This document shows positions 1,760 to 20,793 of a stretch of 26,672 nucleotides of DNA, one piece after another. The stretch's first letter is position 1. Each line of letters opens with the position of its first letter. Position numbers and translations under genes: made by a program. The notes under the pieces were generated by a model. It was given only the letters and a program-made list of their open reading frames with translations, was not told the DNA's origin and did no database searches. The DNA is taken from IMG/VR virus record IMGVR_UViG_3300030331_002606, positions 1 to 26,672 of that record; one strand, written 5' to 3'. The stretch is from a virus.

Positions 1760-2263
1760 ATGAAGATTGGATTTAATTGTAGTTCCTTTGATTTGTTTCA
1801 TGCTGGACATGTGACAATGTTGAAGATGGAAAAAGATTTGTGTGATTACTTGATAGTTGCCTTACAAGTGGACCCTACGATTGACAGACCGGGTATCAAG
1901 AACAAACCCATACAGAGTGTGTATGAGAGGTATGTTCAGGTGCAAGGATGTAAATACGTAGATGAGATATTGGTCTATGAAACAGAAGAAGATCTATTGA
2001 ATATGATCAAGACACAGAGAATGGATATTCGTTTCTTAAGTGAGGAGTATGAGAACCGAGACTTTACAGGAAAGCAATATTGTATCGACAATGGTATTGA
2101 AATCCACTATCATAAGAGACAACATAAGTATTCCTCTACAGAGTTGAGAAACAGAGTTCATGATCTTGAAGAACTTAGGAGGACCGAGACATTGATACAG
2201 ACATCAGCTGATCAATACTCACCTGATTTACTACACAAATACGAGGAAACATGTCCATTCTAG
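1760..2263 (+). CDS. TagD/GCT-like cytidylyltransferase
   Basis: This 167-residue nucleotidyltransferase is the first gene of the glycan operon. The N-terminal strand leads into HAGH (His14-His17), the HxGH nucleotide-binding signature of the cytidylyltransferase superfamily. YSSTELR (124-130) matches the ISTT-x-[IL]-x-x-R signature. The body is about 135 residues, as in glycerol-3-phosphate cytidylyltransferase, plus a 35-residue C-terminal extension. It would activate a small phosphorylated compound as its CDP (or ADP) derivative. Glycerol-3-phosphate is the family's best-known substrate, but phosphoethanolamine or other polyol phosphates are possible. It overlaps the next gene by 13 bases. 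Confidence 0.8.
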   Translation: MKIGFNCSSFDLFHAGHVTMLKMEKDLCDYLIVALQVDPTIDRPGIKNKPIQSVYERYVQVQGCKYVDEILVYETEEDLLNMIKTQRMDIRFLSEEYENRDFTGKQYCIDNGIEIHYHKRQHKYSSTELRNRVHDLEELRRTETLIQTSADQYSPDLLHKYEETCPF

Positions 2264-3174
2264 TCACAGGGGGAGCTGGGTTTATTGGAAGTCAATTACT
2301 CAGATCTCTGAACAAGTTTGGTGAGAGATTGGTGGTTGCCGATAAGATATCTTATGCAGGTAAGAAATCAAATCTACCTGAAAATATTGAATTTTACAAA
2401 ATAGATATCGCAAGTGATGATGCAGTCAGGTATTTGTTTGAACAAGAGACATTTGATACTGTCTTTCATCTGGCAGCAGAGAGTCATGTAGATAATTCAA
2501 TCAAAAATCCTAAACCATTTATTGATACTAATGTTATTGGTACGGTCAATCTTCTACAAGCATCATTAGAACATGAAGTAGATCGTTTTATGCATATCTC
2601 TACAGATGAGGTATTTGGATCTATTGACTTTAAAGATGGATCATTTAATGAAGAGTCAAGGTATCAACCTAGAAATCCCTACTCTGCATCCAAGGCAGCC
2701 AGTGATCATTTTGTAAACTCATATAATATCACCTACGGTCTTCCTACTACCATCACGAACTGTTCAAACAACTATGGACCCCGACAGGATGATGAAAAGA
2801 TGATTCCTACAATCATCAGGAATATTAAGAATGGCACACCTATCCCTGTTTATGGTGATGGACAACAGGTGAGAGATTGGATCTATGTTGAAGATCATTG
2901 TGACGCTTTGATTGAGCTATGGATTAATGGTAAGGTTGGAGAGAGGTATAATATTGGTGGAGAATGTGAACTAAAGAACATCGATCTTGTCAAGATGATT
3001 TGTAAATTGATGAGTAGGGAGGATCATCATATAGAACATGTTACTGATAGACCCGGACACGATCTAAGATACTCTACCTCCAATAAAAAAATAACCACAG
3101 AAACAAAGTGGTCTGTTTCTACTGACATCACAACAGGACTCCTTAACACAATTCTCTACTATGAAGATAATTAA
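2251..3174 (+). CDS. rmlB: dTDP-glucose 4,6-dehydratase (RmlB-like)
   Basis: This 307-residue extended SDR dehydrates an NDP-glucose to NDP-4-keto-6-deoxyglucose. Visible features are the NAD-binding GGAGFIG (7-13), the catalytic triad block STDEVFG with Thr118-Asp119-Glu120, and Tyr144/Lys148 in YSASK. The Asp-Glu pair after Thr is diagnostic of 4,6-dehydratases rather than epimerases. It is about 40 residues shorter than bacterial RmlB. An AGGAAA ribosome-binding site lies within the preceding gene. RmlC follows with an overlap of 14 bases, supporting a dTDP-6-deoxyhexose role. RmlA and a classical RmlD are absent from the window, so the precursor nucleotide sugar must come from the host or elsewhere. 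Confidence 0.88.
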   Translation: MSILVTGGAGFIGSQLLRSLNKFGERLVVADKISYAGKKSNLPENIEFYKIDIASDDAVRYLFEQETFDTVFHLAAESHVDNSIKNPKPFIDTNVIGTVNLLQASLEHEVDRFMHISTDEVFGSIDFKDGSFNEESRYQPRNPYSASKAASDHFVNSYNITYGLPTTITNCSNNYGPRQDDEKMIPTIIRNIKNGTPIPVYGDGQQVRDWIYVEDHCDALIELWINGKVGERYNIGGECELKNIDLVKMICKLMSREDHHIEHVTDRPGHDLRYSTSNKKITTETKWSVSTDITTGLLNTILYYEDN

Positions 3175-3697
3175 TACACCCCTCTTAGACGCCTTTCTGA
3201 TTGAAGAAAATAGACATGAAGATGATAGGGGTTACTTCATTGAAACCTATAATAAAAAAGAATTCTCCAGTATAGGTCTGAACATGGACTTTGTTCAGGA
3301 TAATCACTCTATGTCATCACCACACGTACTTAGAGGACTTCATTATCAAGTTGAGAAACCACAGGGTAAACTGGTCAGATGTATGAAAGGTTCTATCCTG
3401 GATGTGATTGTTGACCTTAGACAATCATCCCCTACTTTTGGCCAACACCATGCTGTTCATCTCTATCGTCCTGAGGTGATGTTGTGGGTGCCGGAGGGAT
3501 TCGCACATGGATTCTATGTGTATAGTTTACATGCACATGTATCTTACAAGACAACAGAATTTTACTATAAAGAGTATGATAGATCACTCCTATGGAATGA
3601 CCCTGATCTTGGTATTGACTGGGGTATAGAAAGTCCATTCTTATCAGCCAAGGACAAATACGCTAAAACATTTAAAGAGTGTGAAAAGTATGAGTAA
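3161..3697 (+). CDS. rmlC: dTDP-4-keto-6-deoxyglucose 3,5-epimerase (RmlC-like)
   Basis: This 178-residue cupin-fold epimerase has the standard family length. It carries LRGLHYQ with catalytic His61, the DLRQSSPTFGQ strand, WVPEGFAHGF with His116, and the aromatic SYKTTEFYY region that supplies the active-site tyrosine. It converts dTDP-4-keto-6-deoxy-D-glucose to the L-lyxo form, feeding a reductase that finishes L-rhamnose or a relative. It overlaps RmlB by 14 bases and the next SDR by 8. The SDR directly downstream is the natural candidate for the final reductase. Confidence 0.9.
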   Translation: MKIINTPLLDAFLIEENRHEDDRGYFIETYNKKEFSSIGLNMDFVQDNHSMSSPHVLRGLHYQVEKPQGKLVRCMKGSILDVIVDLRQSSPTFGQHHAVHLYRPEVMLWVPEGFAHGFYVYSLHAHVSYKTTEFYYKEYDRSLLWNDPDLGIDWGIESPFLSAKDKYAKTFKECEKYE

Positions 3698-4511
3698 TAT
3701 TTCAGTATTCGGAGCCACTGGTTACATTGGTAGCACATTTATGCGAATGTATCCTAACAATATTCTTGTTCCTAGAGGTGATAGACAACCACAGTCTAAG
3801 GATGTTCTTTACCTGATCAGTACAACTACCAATCAGAATGTCTTCCAAGATTTACAGATTGATATTGACACTAACCTCAAGATCCTAACAGAGGTGTTGT
3901 CACATTGTAAGAGAACAGACACGGTGTTTAACTTTGTCAGTTCAGGTTTTGTATATGGAAATGATTTCTTGGACGCTGAGGAATCTGATAGTTGTAATCC
4001 TACCGGGTTCTACTCTGTTACTAAGAGATGTGCAGAGCAGTTATTAATCTCATACTGTGAGACCTTTGGTATCAAGTATCGTATCTTCCGAGTCAGTAAT
4101 GTATTCGGTATCGACCCGACAGTATCAAAAGGTAAGAATGTGTTGGGGTATATGATCCGTCGTCTGAAGAACAATGAGACCATCTATCTGTATGATGGTG
4201 GTGATTTCGTCAAGGACTACATGTGGGTTGATGATGTCTGTAGGGCAATGAAACTTCTGATGGATGAGTCAGACACTAACCAGATTTATAATGTTGGTAC
4301 AGGTTACTCACGGTCCTTTAGAGAGATCATTGAGTATGCAAAGAAGAAGGTGAAGAGTGACAGCAAGATTGAGTCAGTTCCTATGCCATGGGATCAGAAA
4401 TATCTACAGATCAAAAACTTCACGATGAATGTGGATAAACTTATGTCGTTCGGGTTCGTTCCAGAACTTGACATAGACGCTGGTCTTGATATGATGTGTA
4501 AAGTATATTGA
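3690..4511 (+). CDS. Extended SDR sugar-nucleotide reductase/epimerase
   Basis: This 273-residue NAD(P)-dependent SDR starts at the ATG at 3690, which overlaps the RmlC stop; a GTG at 3681 is possible but less likely. It shows the GATGYIG nucleotide-binding loop (8-14), a serine pair (84-85) and Tyr108/Lys112 in YSVTK. The fingerprint fits NDP-4-keto-sugar reductases or epimerases. Its position right after RmlC suggests it reduces the RmlC product at C4, as RmlD or 6-deoxytalose dehydrogenases do. It is not a close textbook RmlD by eye, so the exact product is open. Confidence 0.75.
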   Translation: MSNISVFGATGYIGSTFMRMYPNNILVPRGDRQPQSKDVLYLISTTTNQNVFQDLQIDIDTNLKILTEVLSHCKRTDTVFNFVSSGFVYGNDFLDAEESDSCNPTGFYSVTKRCAEQLLISYCETFGIKYRIFRVSNVFGIDPTVSKGKNVLGYMIRRLKNNETIYLYDGGDFVKDYMWVDDVCRAMKLLMDESDTNQIYNVGTGYSRSFREIIEYAKKKVKSDSKIESVPMPWDQKYLQIKNFTMNVDKLMSFGFVPELDIDAGLDMMCKVY

Positions 4512-4539: not shown

Positions 4540-5616
4540 ATGGATGTTATGACTGAGTATAGTAAGACTGCACTAGTTCTTGGTGCAGGTGGATTCATTG
4601 GTAGTCACATGGTAAAAAGACTACGATCAGAGGGATACTGGGTTCGTGGTGTTGACCTGAAGAGACCTGAGTTCTCTGAAACAGAAGCTAATGAGTTCAT
4701 TCAGGGTGACCTGACTGATCCTTCATTCGTTCGTCGTGTCATTAGATTCAAGGGATATAATGGTAACTTCTTTGCTAGTGTCCCGGATAGATATCATGAA
4801 TCGTTTGATGAGATCTATCAGTTTGCTGCTGACATGGGTGGTGCGGGATTCGTATTCACTGGTGAGAACGATGCAGACATCATGCATAACTCAGTCACTA
4901 TCAATCTAAATGTCCTAGAAGAACAGCGTAAGTTCAACGATGCCAAAGAGGACAACAAGACAAAGATCTTCTACTCTGGTTCGGCATGTATGTATCCCGA
5001 ACACAACCAACTAGACCCTGACAACCCTGACTGCCGTGAAGAATCAGCATATCCCGCAGCCCCAGACTCAGAATATGGATGGGAAAAACTATTCAGTGAG
5101 AGACTATACCGGGCGTACAATCGTAATTATGGGATTCCTGTTCGCATTGCTAGGTATCATAACATATTCGGACCCGAAGGAACCTGGGACGGTGGAAGAG
5201 AAAAGGCTCCGGCTGCAATCTGCCGTAAGGTGGCTAGACTCCCGGAGGTCGGTGGAGGTATCGAAGTGTGGGGAGACGGCTTACAGACTCGTTCCTTCCT
5301 GTTCATTGATGAATGCATTGAAGCAACTAGAAGACTGATGGACTCAGACTTCATGGGACCGGTCAATATTGGTTCTGAGGAGATGGTATCTATCAATCAA
5401 CTGGTAGAGACTGCAGGTAAGGTATCAGGTAAGGTGGTCAGGAAGCTTTACAAACTTGACGCACCTACGGGTGTTCGTGGTCGTAACTCTAATAATGATC
5501 TCATTCGTGAGAAACTTGGTTGGGATTACTCTCAAAGTCTTGAAGAGGGTATCCTTAAAACATACGAATGGATCTGTACACAAATCGCACAGGAAAACAA
5601 TGGGAATCTCGATTGA
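4540..5616 (+). CDS. gme: GDP-mannose 3,5-epimerase
   Basis: This 358-residue SDR closely matches plant and bacterial GDP-mannose 3,5-epimerase. It has GAGGFIG (15-21), AADMGG, the active-site Cys150 in SACMYPE, Tyr179/Lys183 in YGWEK, RYHNIFGPEGTW and REKAPAA with Lys222. The Cys150-Lys222 spacing of 72 equals that of the Arabidopsis catalytic pair as I recall it (Cys145/Lys217). The enzyme converts GDP-D-mannose to GDP-L-galactose and GDP-L-gulose. An alternative start at 4549 is possible. It overlaps the next gene by 17 bases. No fucose-synthesis genes are visible nearby, so L-galactose or L-gulose may be the sugar used by the operon's fucosyltransferase-like enzymes. Confidence 0.9.
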   Translation: MDVMTEYSKTALVLGAGGFIGSHMVKRLRSEGYWVRGVDLKRPEFSETEANEFIQGDLTDPSFVRRVIRFKGYNGNFFASVPDRYHESFDEIYQFAADMGGAGFVFTGENDADIMHNSVTINLNVLEEQRKFNDAKEDNKTKIFYSGSACMYPEHNQLDPDNPDCREESAYPAAPDSEYGWEKLFSERLYRAYNRNYGIPVRIARYHNIFGPEGTWDGGREKAPAAICRKVARLPEVGGGIEVWGDGLQTRSFLFIDECIEATRRLMDSDFMGPVNIGSEEMVSINQLVETAGKVSGKVVRKLYKLDAPTGVRGRNSNNDLIREKLGWDYSQSLEEGILKTYEWICTQIAQENNGNLD

Positions 5617-6313
5617 AGGAATCAAAGAACTGGTAGGTAACCGTGACCAGATCGTTATTTTTGAAGTTGGTTGTGCTGACGGAACTGATACAAAGCAATT
5701 CCTCAGTCAGTTTGGTGACAATCTAAAACTGTATACATTTGATCCTGACCCTACCAACATCAAAGCGATGTCGGCTGAGGGTGGTAAGGATGTAAAGGGT
5801 GTATCTAATCAGGGATTGAGAACTGATAGTCGTCACACATTTACCCCTGCTGCCATGGCTGCACAGGATGGTAAGACCACCTTCACTCGTTCCCGTAACA
5901 CTAACGCACCTGATGGTGGGGTTGACTTCGGTAGATACTCTGGTTCTATCTACGAACCAAAGACGATTATTGATGGTGGACCCCGTGGTAATAGGTGGCC
6001 ATTTATCAAATACGATGAGAAGATTGAGGTTCAAACCAGAAGTCTTGATTCATTCTGTCAGGAGAATGGTATCGATCACATTGACTTCATGTGGATGGAT
6101 GTACAGGGAGCAGAGAAAGAAGTGTTCCTTGGTGCTAAGAACATGATTGGTAAGATTGATTATGTCTATACCGAGTATCATGAAGAGGAGATGTATGAAG
6201 GTGCTACTAACCTTCAGACTGTCACGGATCTTCTACCCGGATATGATATGGCACAGAACTGGCCATACCCTGATGTCATGGGTGGTGACGCATTGTTTAA
6301 ACTGAGAGGTTGA
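5600..6313 (+). CDS. FkbM-type SAM methyltransferase
   Basis: This 237-residue class I methyltransferase starts at the ATG at 5600, preceded by AGGAAA. The longer in-frame extension back to 5456 lies entirely inside the epimerase gene and is rejected. Motif I is FEVGCADGTDT (about 20-30), followed by the acidic strand end FDPDP. HIDFMWMDVQGAE is the FkbM-family motif in which the final Asp and Glu line the active site. FkbM enzymes O-methylate sugar or polyketide hydroxyls, so a sugar O-methylation during glycan assembly is likely. It overlaps the epimerase gene by 17 bases and is followed one base later by a glycosyltransferase. Confidence 0.8.
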   Translation: MGISIEGIKELVGNRDQIVIFEVGCADGTDTKQFLSQFGDNLKLYTFDPDPTNIKAMSAEGGKDVKGVSNQGLRTDSRHTFTPAAMAAQDGKTTFTRSRNTNAPDGGVDFGRYSGSIYEPKTIIDGGPRGNRWPFIKYDEKIEVQTRSLDSFCQENGIDHIDFMWMDVQGAEKEVFLGAKNMIGKIDYVYTEYHEEEMYEGATNLQTVTDLLPGYDMAQNWPYPDVMGGDALFKLRG

Positions 6314-6314
6314 T

Positions 6315-7199
6315 ATGAAGGTATTTGATGTATTCCTGTTTGGTTATGAGTTGGATCTTCTAGAGATTCGTATGAACATCCTTGATCCTTATGTGGACTA
6401 CTTTGTATTCAGTGAAGGTTGTAAAACATTCTCTGGTGAAGATAAGGGTTTTGTATTCAAGAAGACTGACAAGAGGTTCAAGAAGTTTAAAGATAAGATT
6501 ATCTACACCAAGATTGAAGAACCTACTCAGGAAGAACTTCAAGCCAAAGGTATTCAGTATAATGTGAAGAGAGAATCCTTCATGAGAGATACTTTCTACA
6601 AGGACAGTATCATGGAAGTTCTTAAAGAACATTGTGCTGATGATGATGTAATCGTCTGGTCTGATCTGGATGAGGTTCCTAATCCTGAGGTGCTTGAAAA
6701 TCTGAGTGACTTCTACAAACCTGGCACAGTGTATAACTTTGCACAGGATAACTACCAGGCTGCACTCAACTGGTTTGAAACCACCGGTACAATTACATCA
6801 CAGACACTTGACTTCTCTTATGAAGAAGAAGGTCCAAGATGGATTGGCACAAAGATGTGTGACTTTGCTACAATTAAGAAGTACACACTGACTCAAATGA
6901 GACAGGAACTTCCCAGAGAAAACAATCTCAGGATTCATCCTGGCGGTTGGCACTGGAGCACGGTCGGTAGTGACGAAGAGTGCACGATGTATGATCGGGT
7001 GATGAAGAAGATCAAGTCATCGGCTCACACTGAACTCAATAATGATAGACTGATTGGTGAGTTGGAACAACGACTTAAGGATGGTAGGTCACCACTGGGT
7101 CAAGACAATGCTGCTTATTGTATCACTCACTTTGATGAAGATAGGTTCCCTCAATATCTTCTAGATAACAAGGAGAAGTATTCCTATCTGATCAAATGA
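6315..7199 (+). CDS. GT17-family glycosyltransferase
   Basis: This 294-residue protein resembles family GT17 (animal beta-1,4-GlcNAc transferase III relatives, also found in phages and bacteria). It opens with VFDVFLFGYELDLLEIR, then YFVFSEG and KTFSGEDKG, and has a DxD-type metal site in WSDLDEVPNP near residue 117. A GG-WHWS strand follows. It would transfer a sugar, possibly GlcNAc, onto an acceptor glycan; donor and acceptor cannot be read from sequence. There is no membrane anchor, unlike the animal enzymes. The stop overlaps the start of the next small ORF (ATGA). Confidence 0.8.
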   Translation: MKVFDVFLFGYELDLLEIRMNILDPYVDYFVFSEGCKTFSGEDKGFVFKKTDKRFKKFKDKIIYTKIEEPTQEELQAKGIQYNVKRESFMRDTFYKDSIMEVLKEHCADDDVIVWSDLDEVPNPEVLENLSDFYKPGTVYNFAQDNYQAALNWFETTGTITSQTLDFSYEEEGPRWIGTKMCDFATIKKYTLTQMRQELPRENNLRIHPGGWHWSTVGSDEECTMYDRVMKKIKSSAHTELNNDRLIGELEQRLKDGRSPLGQDNAAYCITHFDEDRFPQYLLDNKEKYSYLIK

Positions 7200-7333
7200 T
7201 TGATGAAAGTGGTTGGACACAAAGAGATCCCATTAGTGATGAGGAGTGTATCTTGATCTGTTTAAGAAACGCTCCTTGTGGAACTGACAGAAAGCAAGTT
7301 ACTAGATTAATTCAAGAGTATGAGAACAAATGA
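7196..7333 (+). CDS. 45-residue ORF between two glycosyltransferases
   Basis: This very small ORF begins MIDESGWTQRD and ends LIQEYENK. Its ATG overlaps the stop of the GT17 gene and its stop overlaps the ATG of the next glycosyltransferase, ATGA at both ends, as elsewhere in the operon. That double coupling fills an otherwise unexplained 130-base gap and supports a real gene. It is hydrophilic, with two cysteines spaced 9 apart (ECILICLRNAPCG), and no known motif. Function unknown. Confidence 0.6.
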   Translation: MIDESGWTQRDPISDEECILICLRNAPCGTDRKQVTRLIQEYENK

Positions 7334-8298
7334 TTGTTACTGAAATCTATCGTGGTTCTGGACTGGGTAATCAGATCTGGAATCTTGTCGTATCTAGAAT
7401 CCTTGCTCATAGACATGGATACAAGTGGGGTGTGATGAAGACCACACCATTCAAGGCAAAGAACTTCATGCCTAACTTCTACTTTGGTGAAGAAGTTATT
7501 GGTGGATCTACACCTAGAGAAGGACAACAACCCGCAGTTTTACCACAAGGGATCAAACATTACATCAGAGAGAATGCAGTTCCTCTTCCTATCTGTGGTG
7601 GACATGATGCTCAGTTCTTTGATCCTGCACTCTGGTATAATCTCCCAGATAATTCAAAGATCGATGGTTTATTTCAGAACCTTCAGTATCTTGACGGACA
7701 AAAAGATAGTGTAAGAAAGTGGTTGAAGACTAATCTTGATGTCAGAGATTATTGTGATGATGATATCTGTGTCATTCACTTTAGAGGTGGTGAGTATCTT
7801 ATCACTACAGCTTGGTTAGAACCAAAGTTTTATGAGAACGCAAGAGATAGAATGTTGGAATACAATCCAAACATGAAGTTTGTGGTTGTCACTGATGACC
7901 CTGCTAACGCAAACAAGTTTATCCCTTGGGCAAAAGTGGTTGGTGCAACCACACTCAAGGAACAGGAAGACATTGAACAGGGAACAGGATTCTTTAAGTA
8001 TAAGGGTGGTAATATCGGGGTCGATTGGTCCATCCTATATAATGCAAGGAATGTAATCATGTCCGCCTCAACATTCTCCTTCTGGCCTGTATGGACTAGT
8101 GAAGAAGTAAAGAAAGTTATTGCACCAAAATACTGGTTCGATCATAAGACTTCTACCGGATGGTGGAGAGGTGATGATATTATTGTAAGGGAATGGGACT
8201 ACATCGATACTCAAGGTAACATTATGTCAGGCCCTGAGTGTCAGAAGGAATATGACCTTTACAGACTGAACAATCCATATTATACTTTAGAGAGATAG
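7330..8298 (+). CDS. Fucosyltransferase-like (GT11-related) glycosyltransferase
   Basis: This 322-residue GT-B-type protein has the GT11-like hallmarks in diverged form. GSGLGNQIWN near the N-terminus corresponds to GxxGNQMF, IHFRGGEY corresponds to the H-x-R-R-G-D-Y donor-binding motif, and SASTFSFW corresponds to SSFSWWGA. These enzymes typically transfer L-fucose from GDP-fucose in alpha-1,2 linkage. The modified motif suggests a related GDP-sugar donor or a different linkage. It is ATGA-coupled to the tiny ORF upstream and lies 9 bases before the dehydrase gene. Confidence 0.75.
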   Translation: MIVTEIYRGSGLGNQIWNLVVSRILAHRHGYKWGVMKTTPFKAKNFMPNFYFGEEVIGGSTPREGQQPAVLPQGIKHYIRENAVPLPICGGHDAQFFDPALWYNLPDNSKIDGLFQNLQYLDGQKDSVRKWLKTNLDVRDYCDDDICVIHFRGGEYLITTAWLEPKFYENARDRMLEYNPNMKFVVVTDDPANANKFIPWAKVVGATTLKEQEDIEQGTGFFKYKGGNIGVDWSILYNARNVIMSASTFSFWPVWTSEEVKKVIAPKYWFDHKTSTGWWRGDDIIVREWDYIDTQGNIMSGPECQKEYDLYRLNNPYYTLER

Positions 8299-8307
8299 AA
8301 CGACAGG

Positions 8308-9603
8308 ATGTATCAACTCATTGAGAAGTTCATCAGTGATGCTAAAGAGATGGATGACAATGTGTTTCCGTTCTTGGCCAATAAAGATTGGAGGCCTGGT
8401 AAGAATGTCTACTACTCTGGTCCATATTGGGATGATCTAGAGGCACAAGAACTTATCTACGGTGTCATGAAGGGTAAGTGGTTATCCTCTGGTGAGAAAG
8501 TTAATAAATTTGAGAAAGAATTTTCTAAGAGATTCTTGTTTGAACACTCGGTCATGGTGAACTCAGGTTCATCTGCTAATCTGGTGATGATTGCCGCACT
8601 CAAGAAATATTTTCAATGGCAAGACGGTGACGAGATCATCGTTTGTTCTTGTGGATTTGCAACCACCATTGCACCGGTGGTTCAGGCTAACTTGAAACCA
8701 GTATTTGTTGACATCAACTGGCACGACCTGAACTGGGATATGGAACAGGTATTCAAGAAGGTGACACCTAGGACTCGTGCAGTGTTCTCCTCACCTGTCC
8801 TGGGTAATGCATACGACATGGACAGACTGGTAAAGTTCTGTAAGGCAAAGAATATTCACCTTATCTCTGACAACTGTGACAGTCTGGGTAGTAAGTATAA
8901 GGGTGAGTATCTTACCAAACATGCTGTGGCTGCATCATGTTCTTTCTATCCTGCTCACCATATCTGCACTATCGAAGGTGGTATGGTGTCATCTAATGTC
9001 AAGGCAATCGTAGACTTGGCTCGGAGTTTTGCGTGGTGGGGTCGTGGTTGTTACTGTGTAGGACAACAGAACCTATTGACTAATGGTGTCTGTGGTCGTC
9101 GTTTTGACAAGTGGTTGGACGGATATGATGACATTGTGGATCATAAGTATGTGTTCGGTCAGATGGGATACAATCTCAAACCACTAGACATGCAGGGTGC
9201 AGTTGGTTCAGTTCAACTCCTGAAGTTTGATGAGATCCACAGACTGAGAAGAAAGAATAAGGAAAGTATTCAGAATATCATTGAGACAATCCCTGGTTGT
9301 AGAGTTGTTAGAGAAAGAGAAGACAGTGAGACTAGTTGGTTTGGTGTCCCGATTGTGTGTGAAGAGTCCAAAACCAAACATGCTTTGGTTGCACACTTAG
9401 AGAAGAACAAGATTCAAACTAGAAACTACTTTGCTGGTAACATTCTTCTACACCCTGGTTACTGTCATCTTGACGATGCCAAGAAGTATCCTGAAGCCAA
9501 TAAGGTTCTTAACAATGTGTTCTTCCTGGGTTGTTCTCCTGTCATTACTGATGATATGATTGGATATATTGGAGAGGTAGTGGAGGAATTTAGAAATGCT
9601 TGA
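8308..9603 (+). CDS. E1-type [2Fe-2S] PMP-dependent sugar 3-dehydrase (RfbH/DdhC-like)
   Basis: This 431-residue DegT/DnrJ-fold enzyme is not an aminotransferase. The Schiff-base lysine of the family is replaced by His217 in SFYPAHH. Cys190, Cys248, Cys250 and Cys262 form C-X57-C-X1-C-X11-C, matching the iron-sulfur motif of Yersinia E1 (C-X57-C-X1-C-X7-C as I recall) except for a four-residue longer last gap. His217 lies 27 residues after Cys190, as His220 does after Cys193 in E1. Such enzymes remove the C3 hydroxyl of a 4-keto-6-deoxyhexose using PMP and electrons from a reductase or ferredoxin, giving 3,6-dideoxyhexoses. No dedicated reductase gene is visible here. Confidence 0.9.
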   Translation: MYQLIEKFISDAKEMDDNVFPFLANKDWRPGKNVYYSGPYWDDLEAQELIYGVMKGKWLSSGEKVNKFEKEFSKRFLFEHSVMVNSGSSANLVMIAALKKYFQWQDGDEIIVCSCGFATTIAPVVQANLKPVFVDINWHDLNWDMEQVFKKVTPRTRAVFSSPVLGNAYDMDRLVKFCKAKNIHLISDNCDSLGSKYKGEYLTKHAVAASCSFYPAHHICTIEGGMVSSNVKAIVDLARSFAWWGRGCYCVGQQNLLTNGVCGRRFDKWLDGYDDIVDHKYVFGQMGYNLKPLDMQGAVGSVQLLKFDEIHRLRRKNKESIQNIIETIPGCRVVREREDSETSWFGVPIVCEESKTKHALVAHLEKNKIQTRNYFAGNILLHPGYCHLDDAKKYPEANKVLNNVFFLGCSPVITDDMIGYIGEVVEEFRNA

Positions 9604-10300
9604 TCTGAATAGGGTCACATGTTTTGCTATCGACAATACAAAAACTATTGACGATACTATCAGAGCCTTGTATACATGTATGGATGTTGCCAATTTCCAT
9701 CAGGTAAAACTGGTAACATCATCAGAGTTTGTTGAGAAGTATTCTGATGAACTCAAAGAAGATGGTATCATCGTAGAAGAGAGTTGTGTCCCTGTCACGA
9801 CAAGAGAGGAGTATGGTAAGTTTCTACTTCAAGAACAGTATAGGCATATCGAATCAGAATTCTGTTTGTCAATTCAGAGTCACGCATTCATTATAAATCC
9901 TAGTGCATGGATGGATGAATACTACGAATACGATTATATTGGTGCCCCTTGGCCAATCCGAGATAGGGGTTACATCTCACCATACGGAGAACACATTAGA
10001 GTTGGTAATGGTGGGTTCTCACTTAAGTCAAAGAAACTTATGGAACTACCGAGTAAGGTAGATATTCCTTTCCCTATCACTGATGATAGTGGGTTCTATA
10101 AAACATTTGGCTTCTACGATACACATGAAGATGGTAATATCTGTGTTCATAATCGTCACATCTATGAAGAACATGGATGTAAAATCGCTCCCATTGAAAT
10201 TGCAAAATATTTTTCATATGAGGCACCAGTTCCAGAAAACGATGGTATAATCCCATTCGGATATCATTATCATCTACCACCTGGTATATCCATCGAATAA
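9596..10300 (+). CDS. DUF5672-type putative glycosyltransferase
   Basis: This 234-residue protein matches the DUF5672 pattern. It has a region ending in SHAFIINPSAW, then YEYDYIGAPWP and the glycine-rich VGNGGFSLKSKKLM, which is the family's most conserved block, and then a His-containing segment (THEDGNICVHN). The family is associated with glycosylation loci and is thought to be GT-A-like, but its reaction is not established. It overlaps the dehydrase gene by 8 bases, with GGAGGAA as ribosome-binding site. Its stop is followed by a short 17-base gap. Confidence 0.75.
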   Translation: MLDLNRVTCFAIDNTKTIDDTIRALYTCMDVANFHQVKLVTSSEFVEKYSDELKEDGIIVEESCVPVTTREEYGKFLLQEQYRHIESEFCLSIQSHAFIINPSAWMDEYYEYDYIGAPWPIRDRGYISPYGEHIRVGNGGFSLKSKKLMELPSKVDIPFPITDDSGFYKTFGFYDTHEDGNICVHNRHIYEEHGCKIAPIEIAKYFSYEAPVPENDGIIPFGYHYHLPPGISIE

Positions 10301-10317
10301 ATTTTATCAATTAAACT

Positions 10318-10998
10318 ATGTCTTATACTGCTCCAACTTTTTCTGAACTTGACAATATGTTCCCTGAGGCAACGAAGAGAACTAATCCCACGACTACAGA
10401 CTACACACTTCATCATGTAACATTCGCAGAGAAGATTTCTGAACTTGCAGGTGATGGTGACATCCTTGAGTTCGGTGTCTGTAGTGGTGGCACAATCCTC
10501 CCTATCGGACAAAAGAATCCTTCCCGTTTGGTTTATGGTTTCGATCACTTCAAGGGTCTGGAGGTCACTAAGCAACCAACTCCTGACTACGCAGGATGGA
10601 CTGAAGGTGCATTTCGTATTGGTGATCCTCAGTATGTTTGGATCCCACAGACTGTTGACGATGTAAAGAAGAAGTGTTCTGTCTCACCTAACATCAAGAT
10701 CTTCGTGGAAGATGTTCACGATATGGTAAATAAGGAACCATCTGACTTTGGTATTGGTAAGGTTGGTGCTATTCATATTGACCTAGATATCTACGAACCT
10801 ACAGTATCGGCATTCAAGTTTATTGATAAATGTGAGTGGGATGAATTGTATTTCCGATTTGATGATTGGCATGGTCATGAACCTGACTATGATCATCATG
10901 AGAGAAAGGCATTCCGTGAGTGGTTGGATAAACATGGATATCGTTTTGAGATTCATGAAGATGGTTTGAACGGTGGAGCAAAAGTATGGAAAGAATGA
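10318..10998 (+). CDS. TylF-like class I SAM methyltransferase
   Basis: This 226-residue methyltransferase has motif I ILEFGVCSGGTI (about 49-60), the second strand VYGFDHFKGLE, and GAIHIDLDIYEPT (about 150-162), typical of the TylF/MycF group. That group O-methylates sugar hydroxyls with metal help; Asp residues in HIDLDIY and FRFDDWHG are candidate metal ligands. There is no clear ribosome-binding site, but an AATAAATTT stretch at 10296-10304 lies upstream and could be a weak late-type element. It is coupled to the following oxygenase by ATGA. Confidence 0.7.
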   Translation: MSYTAPTFSELDNMFPEATKRTNPTTTDYTLHHVTFAEKISELAGDGDILEFGVCSGGTILPIGQKNPSRLVYGFDHFKGLEVTKQPTPDYAGWTEGAFRIGDPQYVWIPQTVDDVKKKCSVSPNIKIFVEDVHDMVNKEPSDFGIGKVGAIHIDLDIYEPTVSAFKFIDKCEWDELYFRFDDWHGHEPDYDHHERKAFREWLDKHGYRFEIHEDGLNGGAKVWKE

Positions 10999-11672
10999 AC
11001 TTCAACTGGGAAGTCACGGAGCATGGTAATGATCCATTTGATTATTGGATTATTGATGACTTCTTGGACCTTCCTGTAGCAAAAGACATTAGCCAACAAT
11101 TCCTTAACTATGAGGAAGATGAATGGGTTGGTTATGATGGTTGGATTGCCAAAAAGAAAATCTGTAACAAGTGGGATAGGTTTCCACCCCTGACATACAA
11201 AACTTTCTGGAATCTTCTGTCACTTGAATTTACAGAGAAGATTATGAAGTTGACAGGATGTTCTCCTCTTTATCCTGACATCGGACTTCATGGTGGTGGC
11301 TGGCATATGCATACTGAGGGTGGTAATCTATCTGTCCATCTTGATTATTCAACACATCCTAAGATGAATCTTCAGAGAAAGATCAATCTGATCATTTACT
11401 TGGAGGAGGGTTATGACTCATCCTGGGGTGGTGACCTTGAACTATGGTCTCACAATCCAGATACAAAGAAACCTGGTCATTGTGTCAGATCAGTAGAGGC
11501 TAAGTTCAATAGAGCAATCATCTTTGACACCACACAGAACTCGTGGCATGGTGTTCCAAGTAAACTTAAGTGTCCTCCTGGTAAGGCTAGGAAGAGTTTT
11601 GCTGTATACTATCTGACTGAGTTATCCAATACCGCTGTGGATAGGTTTAGAGCCCACTACGAACAGACTTGA
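10995..11672 (+). CDS. 2OG-Fe(II) oxygenase
   Basis: This 225-residue oxygenase starts at the ATG at 10995, which forms the ATGA overlap usual in this operon and has GGAAAG before it; an ATG at 10986 is in frame but less attractive. The iron-binding HxD is in VHLDYS, the distal histidine in NSWHGVP and the 2OG-binding arginine in KSRKSF-like RKSFAVYY. The strand INLIIYLEEGY and the GGDLELW segment match prolyl-4-hydroxylase-like enzymes. In this operon it could hydroxylate a sugar or a glycan-bearing protein residue before glycosylation; hydroxylated proline or lysine as glycan acceptors is a speculative link. Confidence 0.82.
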   Translation: MNFNWEVTEHGNDPFDYWIIDDFLDLPVAKDISQQFLNYEEDEWVGYDGWIAKKKICNKWDRFPPLTYKTFWNLLSLEFTEKIMKLTGCSPLYPDIGLHGGGWHMHTEGGNLSVHLDYSTHPKMNLQRKINLIIYLEEGYDSSWGGDLELWSHNPDTKKPGHCVRSVEAKFNRAIIFDTTQNSWHGVPSKLKCPPGKARKSFAVYYLTELSNTAVDRFRAHYEQT

Positions 11673-11673
11673 T

Positions 11674-12384
11674 ATGAAAATGTCTATTGCCATCCCTGCC
11701 TACGAGTACAACGGTAGGGGTGTCCTTTATCTAAGTGATCTGTTTAGATCAATCAAGTCTCAGACTCTCAAGGATGTTGAGGTGATTGTATCTGATCATA
11801 GTAAGGATCATAAGATAGAACAATTCTGTGATGACAATATCTTTGATCTTGATATTTGTCATATCAGAACAGAGCAAGGTAGAGGTAATGCAGCTATCAA
11901 TACCAATGTGGCAATGGACTTCTCTACAGGTGAGGTGGTCAAACTCATCTACATGGATGACTTCTTCTATACAGACAATGCATTAGAGTTGATCTATAAT
12001 TCTTTGATGAACTCCGACAAGATGTGGTTGGTCTGTGGTACAAATCATACAAGAGATGATGGTCAGTCTTTTGACTCACCGATTATTCCTAGATGGAATG
12101 AGAGAATGTTGAAGGCTAGAGGTAACAATACCATGAGTGGTACTTCTGTTATCTCCTATCGAAATAAAGATATGGATGTTAGGTGGGATCCAAAGACATT
12201 TGGATTACTTGACATCGATTTTTATTATAGTATGAGAGAGAAATATGGTGGCTGTGTATATCTGGATCAGATCCTGGTATCTCAAAGAGTAAACAATGTA
12301 GATAATATTATCAATACCAGATCATCAGATGAAATCGAAAAAGAATTTGAATATTGTAGACAGAAACACGGTATCATACTATGA
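11674..12384 (+). CDS. GT2-family glycosyltransferase
   Basis: This 236-residue GT-A enzyme begins MSIAIPAYEYNGRG, the family-2 first strand, continues with DLFRSIKSQTLKDVEVIVSD, and has a metal-binding IYMDDFF (D-D) near residue 92. The acceptor half ends with WDPKTFGLLDIDFY. It is soluble, with no membrane segment, so it probably elongates a cytoplasmic glycan. It starts one base after the oxygenase stop and is ATGA-coupled to the GT92-like gene after it. The second Met at 11680 is an alternative start. Confidence 0.82.
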   Translation: MKMSIAIPAYEYNGRGVLYLSDLFRSIKSQTLKDVEVIVSDHSKDHKIEQFCDDNIFDLDICHIRTEQGRGNAAINTNVAMDFSTGEVVKLIYMDDFFYTDNALELIYNSLMNSDKMWLVCGTNHTRDDGQSFDSPIIPRWNERMLKARGNNTMSGTSVISYRNKDMDVRWDPKTFGLLDIDFYYSMREKYGGCVYLDQILVSQRVNNVDNIINTRSSDEIEKEFEYCRQKHGIIL

Positions 12385-13208
12385 AATATTATCTATCAGT
12401 CGCATCAGTATTCAAGAATGAGAGTTGGAATCTAAAGGAATGGATTCTACATTACAAACACCATGGGGTAGATCATATCTACCTGGTAAATGATGGTAGC
12501 ACTGATAATTTTGAGCCGATTCTTGAACCTTTTATACATGAAGGGTTTGTCACACTCTTTCACAATAGTATAAAAGAAAAGTATACCGGGAGACAAACGG
12601 ATGTCAATAACAAATACTTCTTACCAATCTGTAACGAATCTCAATGGATTGCACAAATTGACCTCGATGAGTTCTTATATAGTCCTGTAAAAGTAAATCT
12701 TAAGGAAATCTTAAAAGACTATGAGAACTATGGGACCGTCGAAACGAATTGGGTATGGTTTAATTCTAACGACCATCTTTACCACCCTGCTGCTGGCTTG
12801 GTCCAGGGTTTTACTTCTCGTGCCCCATACAAAGATAGGGTATGGATGACTCACAGATCAAGGTGTGCTGGAGCAGGACAGGAGGAACCAGAATGGTTTA
12901 ATCTCTGGGCACCAAAACAGATTGCAAACACCAAGTTCGGTGTTCAGAATTTCAACATCCATAAGATTTTTACAGGTGGTCCTAATATCAACTTGTCTTT
13001 TGTTGGTAGACCTGATGACCCCCTACTATTGAACGCACACTATCAGATCCAATCCCGTGAGTTCTGGGAGAAAGTCAAGATGACTCGGGGTGCTTTAAAT
13101 AACTGGTATGCTGATCACGCTAGGGGTTGGCATACTTTCTACTCACTAGATGTAGGTGACATCACCGACACAACATTGGCTGAACAAAACAAGGAGATTG
13201 AATTATGA
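12381..13208 (+). CDS. GT92/DUF23-like glycosyltransferase
   Basis: This 275-residue protein has the pattern of glycosyltransferase family 92 and its bacterial relatives. VFKNES-x-x-LKEWILHYKHHGVDHIYLVNDGSTD forms the first lobe (motifs around residues 10-42), and the DxD metal site is IDLDEF (about 92-97). Later come W-V-W-F and a basic KIFTGGP stretch. Eukaryotic GT92 enzymes add beta-1,4-galactose to core fucose, which is interesting beside several fucosyltransferase-like genes, but the bacterial and phage branch is uncharacterised. It is soluble and ATGA-coupled on both sides. Confidence 0.8.
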   Translation: MKYYLSVASVFKNESWNLKEWILHYKHHGVDHIYLVNDGSTDNFEPILEPFIHEGFVTLFHNSIKEKYTGRQTDVNNKYFLPICNESQWIAQIDLDEFLYSPVKVNLKEILKDYENYGTVETNWVWFNSNDHLYHPAAGLVQGFTSRAPYKDRVWMTHRSRCAGAGQEEPEWFNLWAPKQIANTKFGVQNFNIHKIFTGGPNINLSFVGRPDDPLLLNAHYQIQSREFWEKVKMTRGALNNWYADHARGWHTFYSLDVGDITDTTLAEQNKEIEL

Positions 13209-14011
13209 CTATTGGTATGAACAACCTTGGACGGAACGGAAGGATTGGTAATCAGATGTTCCAGTATGCATCACTGGTTGGTATTGCAAAGAAGAATGGA
13301 TATGATTTTAAGATCCCTCCAGACACAGAACTAAGTAAATGTTTTGAGATGCTCCACTGTGGTGGTAGGTTTGGATATATTGATGGAGATGAAGTAGAGA
13401 TCCATGATTGTCATGAGTTCTGTGAGGAACTGTTCACCGAATGTCCTAATCATGTTCACCTTAATGGGTATCTACAGACAGAAAAATATTTCAGTCATGC
13501 ATGGAGACAATTGAAGTGGGACTTTAGATTCAAAGATGAGATTATCGATGCTGTAGACTACGCATGGGGAACTATCCTGTCAAAAGAACCAGTGTCTATT
13601 TGTGTCAGAGAGTTCAATGATCACTTTGACTATCCTGGGTCTGACAGAAACCATCGTAACTTGCCATGGACATACTTTGAGAAAGCCATTAAAATGATGG
13701 GTGAGGATAGGCAGTACATCATCTGTTCAAACAACCTTAAGTTGTGTGAGCAACAGGAAGTATTCAAGGGTAAGAACTTCCACTTCAATGATATGAACAC
13801 GAAGGTAGATAAATCACACTTTGATTTCTGTCTTCTGTCCAAGTGTTCAGACCACATTATCTCTAACAGTACATTTAGTTGGTGGGGTGCATATCTCTCA
13901 CCTAATCCTGAGAAGAGAGTGATTGCACCTACCCCCTGGTATGGTCCTGGTCAAGCACATATTGACACAACAGATTTATTTCCTGAGTCATGGGAGGTTA
14001 TTGAAGCATGA
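13205..14011 (+). CDS. GT11-like fucosyltransferase with altered donor motif
   Basis: This 268-residue GT11-family protein has GRIGNQMFQYAS (about 12-23), GYLQTEKYF (88-96) and SNSTFSWWGAYL. The family's donor-binding H-x-R-R-G-D is replaced by V134-R-E-F-N-D-H140, keeping only one of the two arginines. It is clearly paralogous to the gene at 17995, which keeps the canonical motif. The change may alter the nucleotide-sugar used or mark a weakened enzyme, though the frame is intact and otherwise well conserved. It is ATGA-coupled on both sides. Confidence 0.82.
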   Translation: MTIGMNNLGRNGRIGNQMFQYASLVGIAKKNGYDFKIPPDTELSKCFEMLHCGGRFGYIDGDEVEIHDCHEFCEELFTECPNHVHLNGYLQTEKYFSHAWRQLKWDFRFKDEIIDAVDYAWGTILSKEPVSICVREFNDHFDYPGSDRNHRNLPWTYFEKAIKMMGEDRQYIICSNNLKLCEQQEVFKGKNFHFNDMNTKVDKSHFDFCLLSKCSDHIISNSTFSWWGAYLSPNPEKRVIAPTPWYGPGQAHIDTTDLFPESWEVIEA

Positions 14012-14793
14012 GTATCATGGATATTGCAATCCACGATGGATCACCTGGTTTAGCAAATAGAATTAAAAACTATGCTGGTATCTATAGAACATTCAGACAA
14101 GCTCTGACTGTCAATGAAGCTGATGCTTATATCTTTGATGACTTAAGACTTGCCACACAACAAGAACTTGATACCTTTCCTACCTTCGACCACTGGAGGT
14201 TCCCTATTATCCCTGGTGAGGATAGGAAGACTGGGGAGTATAAGTATATCGATCTCTTGTATGAAAATACACCAAAGTATTTCATCGATGTCTATAGAGA
14301 AGCATTTAGTCATCTACATGTTAACTCTGATATCGTAGACTATTGTGTTGGGTTTACTAGTGACTGGGATAAGGTAGTTGGTCTCCACATTAGATCGTGG
14401 TATTGTGACCGGATGAAGTATCATAATAATGAACTGTTTGAGAGTGTTATAGATACCTTTGACAAGGATAGAAAGATCTTTCTTTGTGGTGACAACAGTG
14501 ATGTATTAAATCACTTCAAGGATAAGTATGGTGACCGTATCATCACTCATCCACAGAAGAAATACAATCACCCACATATGGCTGAGTCAGGACACAACAA
14601 GTCCGTACAAGATACTGTAGATGCTTTCATCGACTTGTATCTTCTGTCCATGTGTGATATTATCGTGGGTACATATGCCTCAACTTTTGCTGAGGTGGCG
14701 TGGTGGTTAGGTGGTAACAATCCCAAGGTTATCATACCTGAACCCTACAACTTAGAGGAATCATTTAGGAATAGGATTTTTGAAAAACTATGA
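14008..14793 (+). CDS. FUT-like glycosyltransferase (NodZ/FUT8-type motif)
   Basis: This 261-residue protein has a glycine-rich N-terminal loop (GSPGLANRIKNYAG), then VVGLHIRSWYCDR, which resembles the H-x-R-x-x-D peptide of alpha-1,6-fucosyltransferases and O-fucosyltransferases, and near the C-terminus GTYASTFAEVAWWLGG, resembling the conserved SxFS/A region. The two-domain pattern suggests a GT-B fold using a GDP-sugar. It is distinct from the GT11 pair in the same operon. It is ATGA-coupled to its neighbours. Donor and acceptor are not determined. Confidence 0.7.
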   Translation: MSIMDIAIHDGSPGLANRIKNYAGIYRTFRQALTVNEADAYIFDDLRLATQQELDTFPTFDHWRFPIIPGEDRKTGEYKYIDLLYENTPKYFIDVYREAFSHLHVNSDIVDYCVGFTSDWDKVVGLHIRSWYCDRMKYHNNELFESVIDTFDKDRKIFLCGDNSDVLNHFKDKYGDRIITHPQKKYNHPHMAESGHNKSVQDTVDAFIDLYLLSMCDIIVGTYASTFAEVAWWLGGNNPKVIIPEPYNLEESFRNRIFEKL

Positions 14794-15686
14794 AAACATC
14801 CCTCGTAACGGGTGGTGCCGGGTTCATCGGTAGTCACCTGGTGGATAAACTCCTGGCCATGGGTCACAAGGTTATTGTCCTTGACAATGAGACTTCAGAT
14901 GGTCATGACAAATACTATTGGAATGACTATGCCACTAACTACCCAGTGGATATCAGAACCTTCTGGCACATTGCTGACAAGTTTCGTGGTGTTGATTATG
15001 TCTTCCATCTTGCAGCCAAGGCAAGTGTCCAGGCGTCTATTGACAAACCCCTTGACACTATGGAAACACAGGTCATGGGAACAGCTAATGTTCTTGAGGC
15101 AGCAAGAGCTGCTAACGTAGAGAAGTTTATTTACTCCTCTACCTCTGCATGTTATGGAAATAATAATCCTATTCCTAACACAGAGATCATGCGTGAAGAT
15201 CCTCTAAACGCATATGCCATTGGTAAATTGTGTGGAGAGCAATTGGTCAAAGCATATTATCATCTTTATGGTATGAAAACTGTGGCTTTCAGATACACCA
15301 ATGTGTATGGTGAGAGAGCAAGACACGTAGGATCATACGCTCCTTGTGTAAGTAAGTTTATTAAGATGAAGAAAGAAGGTCAGCCATTGACTATTTTTGG
15401 TGATGGTGAACAGAGACGTGACTTTATCCATGTGTCTGATGTAGTCAACGCTAATGCAGTTGTAACTTTTGAGGAACTTGACAACTGGGGTGAGGTCTAT
15501 AACATTGGGTATGGTGAGAACTGGAGTGTCAATGAGATTGCGAATGCTATCTCTGATGATCAGGTTCACCTGTCCGCCAAACCTGGTGAGATGAAAGAGA
15601 CCTTGGCAGATATTCGTAAGGCCAAGGCTGAACTCACTTGGAAACCGAAAGTAAACATTCTTGATTGGATCAAAACACAAGTATGA
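14790..15686 (+). CDS. NAD-dependent UDP-hexose epimerase-like SDR
   Basis: This 298-residue extended SDR resembles UDP-glucose/UDP-GlcNAc 4-epimerases. It has TGGAGFIG at the N-terminus, VFHLAAKASV, the catalytic serine in SSTSACYG, Tyr and Lys in YAIGK, and FRYTNVYGER followed by GDGEQRRDFIHVSDV. It lacks the Asp-Glu of 4,6-dehydratases. It would interconvert gluco and galacto forms of a UDP-sugar, or the uronic acid versions. Coupling by ATGA to a galactosyltransferase-like gene downstream fits a role in making UDP-galactose or UDP-GalNAc. Confidence 0.8.
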   Translation: MKTSLVTGGAGFIGSHLVDKLLAMGHKVIVLDNETSDGHDKYYWNDYATNYPVDIRTFWHIADKFRGVDYVFHLAAKASVQASIDKPLDTMETQVMGTANVLEAARAANVEKFIYSSTSACYGNNNPIPNTEIMREDPLNAYAIGKLCGEQLVKAYYHLYGMKTVAFRYTNVYGERARHVGSYAPCVSKFIKMKKEGQPLTIFGDGEQRRDFIHVSDVVNANAVVTFEELDNWGEVYNIGYGENWSVNEIANAISDDQVHLSAKPGEMKETLADIRKAKAELTWKPKVNILDWIKTQV

Positions 15687-16489
15687 TCGACCTTAGTAAT
15701 GCGACATTCATCATTCCGATCAGGATTGAATCGGATGATAGATTGAGGAATGTAATTACAACTACATCTTATCTCCTTGAAAACTTTGATACTAATATTA
15801 TTATCAAGGAAGTGGATAAGACATCTAGATTTGTTAGTGACGCACTTCCGGTATTGAAGAACATTCTTTCAGTTCCAGTCAAAGTCAAACATATCTTTGA
15901 AGAAAGTAATGCTCCTCTGTTTCATAGACAGAGAGTATTGAATGAAATGATCCATGAGGCAGACACTGATATTGTTGTCAACTATGATTGTGATGCGATA
16001 CTTCCTATTGATTCGATGAAGGAAGCATATGACATGATCATGGATGGTCGTTACGATGTTGTCTACCCCTATGGATGGGGTAACTATCAGTATCAAGTTA
16101 AACCATCTGATGATGTAGTCTCTGACTTTCTTGAGAACTATGACTATGCCATCCTCAAATCAAACTCCAAAATCTATGACGCACAGTCGGGGTGGGTGCA
16201 GTTCTTCAAACGATCCGTCTACATTGAAGGTGGTATGGAGAATGAAAACTTCAAGGCATATGCACCTGAGGATAAGGAAAGACTATACAGATATCAAAAG
16301 TTAGGATATAATGTCGGACGAATATCTAATTTCATCTATCATCTTGAACATGCTCGTGGTGAGAACTCATGGTTCACCAATCCACATATGCAATCTAATA
16401 ATGATCTATGGGAGGAGATACAGAGAATGACAAAAGAACAACTTATTGAATATTACTCTAATCAAAGTTACTTACAGAAATACCTATGA
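15683..16489 (+). CDS. GT-A glycosyltransferase, galactosyltransferase-like
   Basis: This 268-residue protein starts at the ATG at 15683 in an ATGA overlap; a TTG 18 bases upstream is not needed. It begins with a GT-A strand (ATFIIPIRI) and has a DxD-type VNYDCDAI near residue 107. The acceptor region FKAYAPEDKERLYRYQKLGY resembles the galactosyltransferase C-terminal domain (the G-x-x-D/E-D segment). It likely transfers galactose or GalNAc from UDP. The UDP-hexose epimerase directly upstream supports this. It is followed by talC, again coupled by ATGA. Confidence 0.75.
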   Translation: MIDLSNATFIIPIRIESDDRLRNVITTTSYLLENFDTNIIIKEVDKTSRFVSDALPVLKNILSVPVKVKHIFEESNAPLFHRQRVLNEMIHEADTDIVVNYDCDAILPIDSMKEAYDMIMDGRYDVVYPYGWGNYQYQVKPSDDVVSDFLENYDYAILKSNSKIYDAQSGWVQFFKRSVYIEGGMENENFKAYAPEDKERLYRYQKLGYNVGRISNFIYHLEHARGENSWFTNPHMQSNNDLWEEIQRMTKEQLIEYYSNQSYLQKYL

Positions 16490-17163
16490 AACTTTTTCTA
16501 GACACAGCTGATAATGCTGAGGTAGCACGTCACTTCGGTACAGGTCTGATTGACGGTGTGACAACTAATCCTACTCTTATCATGAAGAGTGGTCGTAAAC
16601 CACAGGATGTATATCGTGAACTGATGTTGATGGGTGTCAAAGATATCTCCATGGAGATTGTGGGAGAAGCACCCTACATCGTAGCTGAGGCACATAACCT
16701 GGTAGAAGAGTTTGGAGAAGTATGTACTATTAAAGTACCTTGTACTCGCGAAGGTTTACTTGCATGTCGTGAACTTTCAAAAGAGAATATCCGTGTCAAC
16801 GTGACTCTTATCTTTAGTGCCGCACAAGCAATTCTTGCTGCCAAGTCTGGAGCTTACTATGTTTCGCCGTTCGTTGGAAGATTGGATGATCAAAGTGTCG
16901 CGGGTCTTGAAGTGGTACGTTCTATCGTGGAGCTGTATCGTATTCATGGCATTCGTACTAGAGTACTCTCTGCCTCAATAAGATCTGTACAAAGAGTCGT
17001 AAGATCATTCTATAATGGTGCTGACATTGTGACCATGCCTCCTTCTATCTTTGAGAAGATGTATGATCATGTTCTTACCCGTGAAGGTATCAAACAATTT
17101 GATACTGACTGGGCAACGTTTAACGAAGAGATTCCCGTAGTTCCCTCAGTTCCTGCCGTATGA
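16486..17163 (+). CDS. talC: Transaldolase, TalC/FSA type
   Basis: This 225-residue enzyme belongs to the short TalC/fructose-6-phosphate-aldolase type carried by many cyanophages. Visible features are MKLFLDTAD at the N-terminus, TTNPTLI and the Schiff-base Lys83 in CTIKVP, then NVTLIFSAAQA and YVSPFVGRLDD. It interconverts sedoheptulose-7-P plus glyceraldehyde-3-P with erythrose-4-P plus fructose-6-P in the pentose phosphate pathway. In cyanophages it is regarded as an auxiliary metabolic gene that redirects carbon to NADPH and ribose. Here it is ATGA-coupled inside the glycan operon, so it may also raise fructose-6-P for GDP-mannose. Confidence 0.95.
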   Translation: MKLFLDTADNAEVARHFGTGLIDGVTTNPTLIMKSGRKPQDVYRELMLMGVKDISMEIVGEAPYIVAEAHNLVEEFGEVCTIKVPCTREGLLACRELSKENIRVNVTLIFSAAQAILAAKSGAYYVSPFVGRLDDQSVAGLEVVRSIVELYRIHGIRTRVLSASIRSVQRVVRSFYNGADIVTMPPSIFEKMYDHVLTREGIKQFDTDWATFNEEIPVVPSVPAV

Positions 17164-20574: not shown

Positions 20575-20793
20575 GTGACTGTTAGTTCTAATGATCAAGG
20601 GCAACAAAACATGTGGGCAAAAGAGCCCAGAATGTATATTGATCCCGTTGCTGCCCAACGTTATGGTTACGAAACACATAACGAAAAAGCTGAGAAACTG
20701 AATGGCCGTGTAGCCATGTTGGGTTTCGTCGCTGGACTCCTTTCTTACGTAACTTCTGGAAGTTTGTTCTTCTTTGGTTTGTTTGGGATCTGA
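20575..20793 (+). CDS. hli: High-light-inducible protein (Hli)
   Basis: This 72-residue protein starts at GTG 20575 with AGGAG eight bases upstream. The signature E-K-L-N-G-R-V-A-M-L-G-F (about 40-51) is the chlorophyll-binding half-motif of the LHC/Hlip family, inside the single transmembrane helix. It would bind pigment in the thylakoid and protect photosystem II during infection. The N-terminal 35 residues include a PRMYIDPVAA stretch seen in cyanobacterial and phage Hlips. It is the first and longest of three Hlips here. Confidence 0.95.
   Translation: MTVSSNDQGQQNMWAKEPRMYIDPVAAQRYGYETHNEKAEKLNGRVAMLGFVAGLLSYVTSGSLFFFGLFGI

Follow-up and report, generated by a model that had tools for sequence, protein, structure and literature searches.

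An E1-type iron-sulfur sugar 3-dehydrase and its SDR partner in a cyanophage glycan operon

A comparison of cyanophage genomes published in 2010 left undecided whether their LPS gene clusters are functional or serve as filler for headful packaging (PMC3037559). The 26.7-kb IMG/VR virus record analysed here, taken in full and called the window below (26,672 nucleotides), belongs to a virus of marine cyanobacteria and contains a glycan operon with a gene at 8308-9603 that PHROGs labels as an aminotransferase and nothing finer. Viral genes of the rfbH/ddhC/ascC type appear in automated lists of marine auxiliary genes, the accessible part of which describes neither the mechanism nor a partner (PMC10653327). 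We asked which reaction this protein catalyzes, on which sugar, and with electrons from where.

The protein belongs to the Pfam DegT/DnrJ/EryC1/StrS family (241.7 bits). Its gene and diagnostic codons are:

8308-9603, plus strand: E1-type [2Fe-2S], PMP-dependent NDP-4-keto-6-deoxysugar 3-dehydrase; ATG start, 431 amino acids
8875-8877, plus strand: codon of Cys190, predicted cluster ligand 1; aligned to the first cluster Cys of Yersinia E1, invariant
8956-8958, plus strand: codon of His217, predicted catalytic His replacing the PLP lysine; aligned to E1 position 220, invariant
9049-9057, plus strand: codons of Cys248-Tyr-Cys250, predicted cluster ligands 2 and 3 by alignment and invariance
9091-9093, plus strand: codon of Cys262, predicted cluster ligand 4 by alignment and invariance, 11 residues past Cys250

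A first-pass annotation had placed these residues from the DNA letters, and the translated reading frame bore it out: Cys residues occur at 190, 248, 250 and 262 and His at 217 and 218, the motif is C-X57-C-X1-C-X11-C as had been proposed, and His217 does lie 27 residues beyond the first Cys. The best match in the PDB by phmmer was Yersinia E1 (3bcx, E 4.8e-63). In that alignment the four Cys pair with the cluster Cys of E1, where the last gap is X7, and His217 pairs with E1 residue 220, which is the Lys of the H220K mutant entry 3bb8. The catalytic Lys of the sugar aminotransferases PseC, ArnB and perosamine synthase was found in none of the homologues aligned; all have His. The top NCBIfam model was RfbH (NF011936) at 350.3 bits against a curated cut-off of 423, which leaves the protein outside the RfbH/DdhC/AscC equivalog as that model draws it.

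Structure prediction pointed the same way. The AlphaFold2 model has a mean pLDDT of 90.1, with the cluster loop (residues 251-280) poorly modelled at 56-66. Foldseek returned E1 as the best match (3bcx/3bb8, TM 0.86), and VIA-align did as well (Z 50.3 over 404 residues at 2.4 A), the next family scoring 46.6, 3.7 Z units lower. The alignment with E1 predicts that the four Cys would converge on a single cluster. Motif, closest structure and tree all uphold the original reading of the protein as an Fe-S, PMP-dependent 3-dehydrase, and we consider the E1-type assignment well supported.

At least 193 IMG/VR stretches encode a relative of this protein. We aligned 83 phage sequences, comprising the window and 82 others drawn from 80 IMG/VR contigs, the record itself and Synechococcus phage S-B43. 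In all 83 the four Cys, His217 and the 57/11 spacing are kept, and the four Cys and His217 are also invariant in a mixed alignment of 83 sequences, 80 of them cellular homologues. A lysine at position 217, named at the outset as the finding in close homologues that would speak against the E1 reading, was looked for in both sets and occurs in neither. A protein 86% identical to that of the window is found in five named Synechococcus phages (S-H68, S-B43, S-B05, RB11-B and RN05-S); its annotation in S-H68 reads CDP-4-dehydro-6-deoxy-D-glucose 3-dehydratase. Six further Cys (113, 115, 211, 220, 351 and 409) are invariant in the phages as well; we dropped them as candidate cluster ligands since they mostly vary in cellular relatives and are traits of the phage clade.

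The first-pass annotation had called the longer last Cys gap unusual, a description that did not survive the comparison. Among 80 bacterial and archaeal homologues the gap is mostly 7, and gaps of 9, 10, 11 and 12 are found too. Alignment and tree identify the gap of 11 as a clade trait, and we rejected it as an oddity: it marks one clade with support of 98/97. Viral members of this clade are cyanophages, a huge phage and the single-cell virus AG-345-D19; cellular members are a Prochlorococcus single-cell genome, two more picocyanobacterial genomes, and one genome each of Nitrosomonadaceae, Bacteriovoracaceae and Nitrospirales. The phage sequences sit beside the Prochlorococcus sequence in the tree, and few genomes of the host order have the gene (3 of 299). 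The Prochlorococcus genome carries an SDR-E1 pair close to a GT41/TPR gene (L088:3635-5748), and this pair is a possible cellular source of the phage genes.

The surroundings of the gene supported the suggestion of a cyanophage glycan operon, both by gene content and by the named Synechococcus phages that share it. The other operon genes are:

1760-2263, plus strand: cytidylyltransferase-like protein of the HldE C-domain/glycerol-3-phosphate cytidylyltransferase type, first gene of the operon
2251-3174, plus strand: dTDP-glucose 4,6-dehydratase RmlB (TIGR01181, 388.6 bits, cut-off 365.1)
3161-3697, plus strand: dTDP-4-dehydrorhamnose 3,5-epimerase RmlC (TIGR01221, 224.3 bits, cut-off 155.75)
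3681-4511, plus strand: short SDR of 276 amino acids, conserved E1 partner, putative NDP-4-keto-3,6-dideoxyhexose 4-reductase
4540-5616, plus strand: NDP-sugar SDR of the epimerase/dehydratase family, widespread in cyanophages
5606-8298, plus strand: three genes running up to E1, encoding an FkbM methyltransferase, a GT17-like transferase and a weakly GT11-like transferase
9596-19592, plus strand: remaining glycan operon, with a DUF5672 protein, GT2, GT92-like, GT11 and GT25 transferases, SDRs and a TalC-type transaldolase

The first gene of the last group overlaps the E1 stop codon. The window operon matches that of S-H68 gene for gene, save one extra 2OG-Fe(II) oxygenase gene (10986-11672), an insertion without counterpart in the otherwise collinear S-H68 operon. 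The transaldolase gene (16486-17163) lies within the glycan operon in the same position as in S-H68 and RB11-B. After the operon come a high-light-inducible gene (20575-20793) and a plastocyanin gene (21955-22278); the pstS and ferredoxin genes that S-H68 and RB11-B carry at this site are absent from the window.

The most constant neighbor of E1 is the short SDR. Of 80 viral E1 loci, 74 have a homologue of about 275 amino acids, which in 46 of them immediately precedes E1, and it adjoins E1 in most cellular members of the clade too. In this SDR the GxxGxxG and YxxxK motifs are kept, and the Asp-Glu pair of 4,6-dehydratases, present in the RmlB of the operon, is missing. Its fold is that of an extended NDP-sugar SDR. 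Epimerases, reductases and dehydratases were nearly tied in Z and no unique functional match emerged, so the fold does not single out its exact reaction. Established pathways have an SDR that reduces the 4-keto group once E1 has acted, and by this analogy the protein at 3681-4511 is probably a 4-ketoreductase.

We then considered the electrons. As the first-pass annotation had stated, the window encodes no E3-type reductase: searches of it with both NAD_binding_1 and Fer2 were negative, the latter also meaning that it holds no ferredoxin. No NAD_binding_1 domain scored over the cut-off in 27 E1-bearing records, which include the complete genomes of S-B43 and RB11-B. An E3-like gene was found nearby at just 2 of the 35 bacterial E1 loci whose 8-kb flanks are complete, so that a missing E3 is no special feature of phages.

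What takes the place of E3 may be a plant-type ferredoxin. The complete genomes S-B43 and RB11-B each contain Fer2, and a ferredoxin is encoded by every one of the five named E1 phages. Among the 11 metagenomic contigs that extend 13 kb or more past E1, 7 have a gene for a plant-type ferredoxin 8-14 kb downstream of it. Ferredoxin is also abundant in the host. SpnQ works with ferredoxin or flavodoxin, together with their reductases, rather than with E3, according to a review (PMC8987622). Given the lack of an encoded E3, this precedent and the ferredoxins of many relatives, the simplest reading is that a plant-type ferredoxin, the host's or the phage's own where present, is the most likely donor. 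A ferredoxin specific to E1 was rejected: ferredoxins are common in cyanophages without E1, and the E1 phages are closely related to one another, so that we attach no significance to their sharing one. We counted 279 phage records with ferredoxin and 401 with plastocyanin, and a published survey found ferredoxin in 44 of 153 cyanophages (PMC10452541). A link between E1 and the photosynthesis genes of the phage, as first proposed, is speculation, and the data give no grounds for the original emphasis on photosynthesis or on the gap as an oddity. A broader version, in which the viral E1 clade makes dTDP-3,6-dideoxyhexoses with ferredoxin reduced by photosystem I, in some phages their own, and thereby ties glycan remodelling to light, is a tentative idea that we think will more probably fail than hold.

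Putting these elements together, we propose the following pathway. PMP in the DegT-fold active site would form a Schiff base with a nucleotide-linked 4-keto-6-deoxyhexose, His217 would take a proton, and the C3 hydroxyl would depart. The [2Fe-2S] cluster on Cys190, 248, 250 and 262 would then hand over two electrons singly, yielding the 4-keto-3,6-dideoxy sugar. As substrate we consider dTDP-4-keto-6-deoxy-D-glucose likely, with the RmlB of the operon producing it from host dTDP-glucose. The SDR at 3681-4511 would probably reduce C4, and a glycosyltransferase of the operon would attach the dideoxyhexose to a glycan; the presumed target is the polysaccharide on the surface of the infected cell. 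Electrons would come from host ferredoxin, or from a phage-encoded one where present. As a whole, an E1-type dehydrase fed by RmlB and ferredoxin, followed by SDR reduction and transfer to a glycan, is the account we favor, with moderate confidence.

The choice of sugar nucleotide rests on genomic context, which makes a dTDP-linked substrate more likely than a CDP-linked one. RmlB and RmlC of the window both exceed their NCBIfam cut-offs, and the window RmlB scores far under the cut-off of the CDP-glucose 4,6-dehydratase model. RmlB is above the cut-off in both complete sister phages, S-B43 and RB11-B, and these genomes contain no NTP_transferase protein (the nucleotidyltransferase fold of RmlA/DdhA). 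In nine phage records with E1, of which two are complete genomes, no CDP-glucose 4,6-dehydratase scored over the cut-off. Relatives in the clade join E1 to the same genes: the order is rmlA-rmlB-SDR-E1 in the Bacteriovoracaceae genome and rmlB-like gene-SDR-E1 in AG-345-D19, where the rmlB-like product falls just short of the RmlB cut-off (361.9 versus 365.1 bits). Two of the three picocyanobacterial genomes with E1 have RmlB and no CDP-glucose 4,6-dehydratase above the cut-off, although single-cell genomes are perhaps incomplete. Taken together, this gene context favors dTDP-4-keto-6-deoxyglucose. The phages might instead use CDP-4-keto-6-deoxyglucose from the host, as DdhC and AscC do, with RmlB and RmlC serving a separate deoxysugar branch. 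We think this unlikely but worth keeping in mind: the closest characterized enzymes act on CDP sugars, and CDP-glucose 4,6-dehydratase is encoded somewhere in three of six cellular clade genomes, including the Bacteriovoracaceae genome with rmlA-rmlB beside E1. An RmlB ortholog, moreover, lies in the fetched flanks of 38 of 80 viral loci and is missing from those of the other 42, and E1-bearing contigs of 78-107 kb (L061 and L051) lack it; because of this, the substrate may vary among viruses or come from host enzymes. In a motif scan, DdhA/DdhB-type signatures turned up in 19 of 53 long loci with other gaps versus 0 of 5 long X11 loci, a difference to which, with such small numbers and crude motifs, we give no weight by itself.

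That the enzyme works with no reductase at all, mainly as a C4 aminotransferase like SpnQ with PLP and glutamate or as a hydrolytic dehydrase like ColD, seems improbable to us. No E3 is encoded, which would suit it, but such an enzyme would not need the four cluster Cys, which are invariant in all phage sequences, and host ferredoxin is at hand. SpnQ does transaminate in the absence of a reductase, yet E1 is reported not to do so under the same conditions (PMC8987622, review). Least probable of all, to the point that we would be surprised by it, is that the glycan cluster is packaging filler with no function in infection. The function of such clusters was stated as unknown in 2010 (PMC3037559), and their gene content differs between phages. 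Against this, the active-site and cluster residues are intact in 83 sequences, and dN/dS for E1 is 0.06-0.07, which is purifying selection. Purifying selection extends to every operon gene whose ratio could be measured, with omega of 0.03-0.19 versus S-H68, approximate values for which dS is in some cases saturated. Purifying selection and intact catalytic residues thus argue for function over filler. The phage enzyme is real, conserved and under selection, and represents a lineage variant of the E1 type.

These results define a coherent variant of the system, in which an E1 clade is paired with an SDR of its own, probably follows a dTDP route and lacks a dedicated reductase. They also make it testable whether large cyanophage glycan clusters are functional or filler, and whether any enzyme of glycan synthesis is served by a cyanophage ferredoxin.

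Compared with Yersinia E1 (AscC-DdhC-RfbH, CDP-4-keto-6-deoxyglucose 3-dehydrase, 3bcx), the phage enzyme shares the DegT fold with its N-terminal extension, His in place of Lys, and the same four Cys, with equal spacing to the His and among the first three. It differs in sequence (~31% identity in the structural alignment), in the last gap (11 rather than 7), in the lack of E3, in having dTDP rather than CDP genes nearby, and in forming a separate clade below the RfbH cut-off. SpnQ, the dTDP-4-keto-2,6-dideoxyglucose 3-dehydrase of spinosyn synthesis, is alike in its described biochemistry, being an Fe-S/PMP enzyme that works with ferredoxin or flavodoxin and the matching reductases rather than E3 (PMC8987622), whereas its substrate is a 2,6-dideoxy sugar and its pathway makes an antibiotic. 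The closest systems are those of S-H68, S-B43, S-B05, RB11-B and RN05-S, which have the same operon. Downstream of it, S-H68 and RB11-B carry pstS and ferredoxin genes that are missing there from the window; S-B43, S-B05 and RN05-S, too, differ from the window in encoding a ferredoxin.

ColD (GDP-4-keto-6-deoxymannose 3-dehydratase, 2gms) shares the fold and the His for Lys with the phage E1 but has no Fe-S Cys and needs no electrons. Proteins of this kind occur in cyanophages as well. In S-CAM7 and ACG-2014f (L170:2953-4083 and L171:1417-2607), proteins that resemble distant relatives, with the His and without cluster Cys, are encoded inside glycan clusters, next to GDP-mannose 4,6-dehydratase and a fucose-synthase-like SDR. 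From these residues and neighbors we take them to be of the ColD type, and the gene set resembles a colitose-type pathway. The ACG-2014f protein is annotated as hypothetical and the S-CAM7 protein as CDP-4-keto-6-deoxyglucose 3-dehydrase, an annotation that is probably wrong on the substrate. Cyanophages thus hold two 3-deoxygenation chemistries, an Fe-S one of the E1 type and an Fe-S-free one of the ColD type with GDP-mannose 4,6-dehydratase, and this suggests some benefit in possessing a 3-deoxy sugar.
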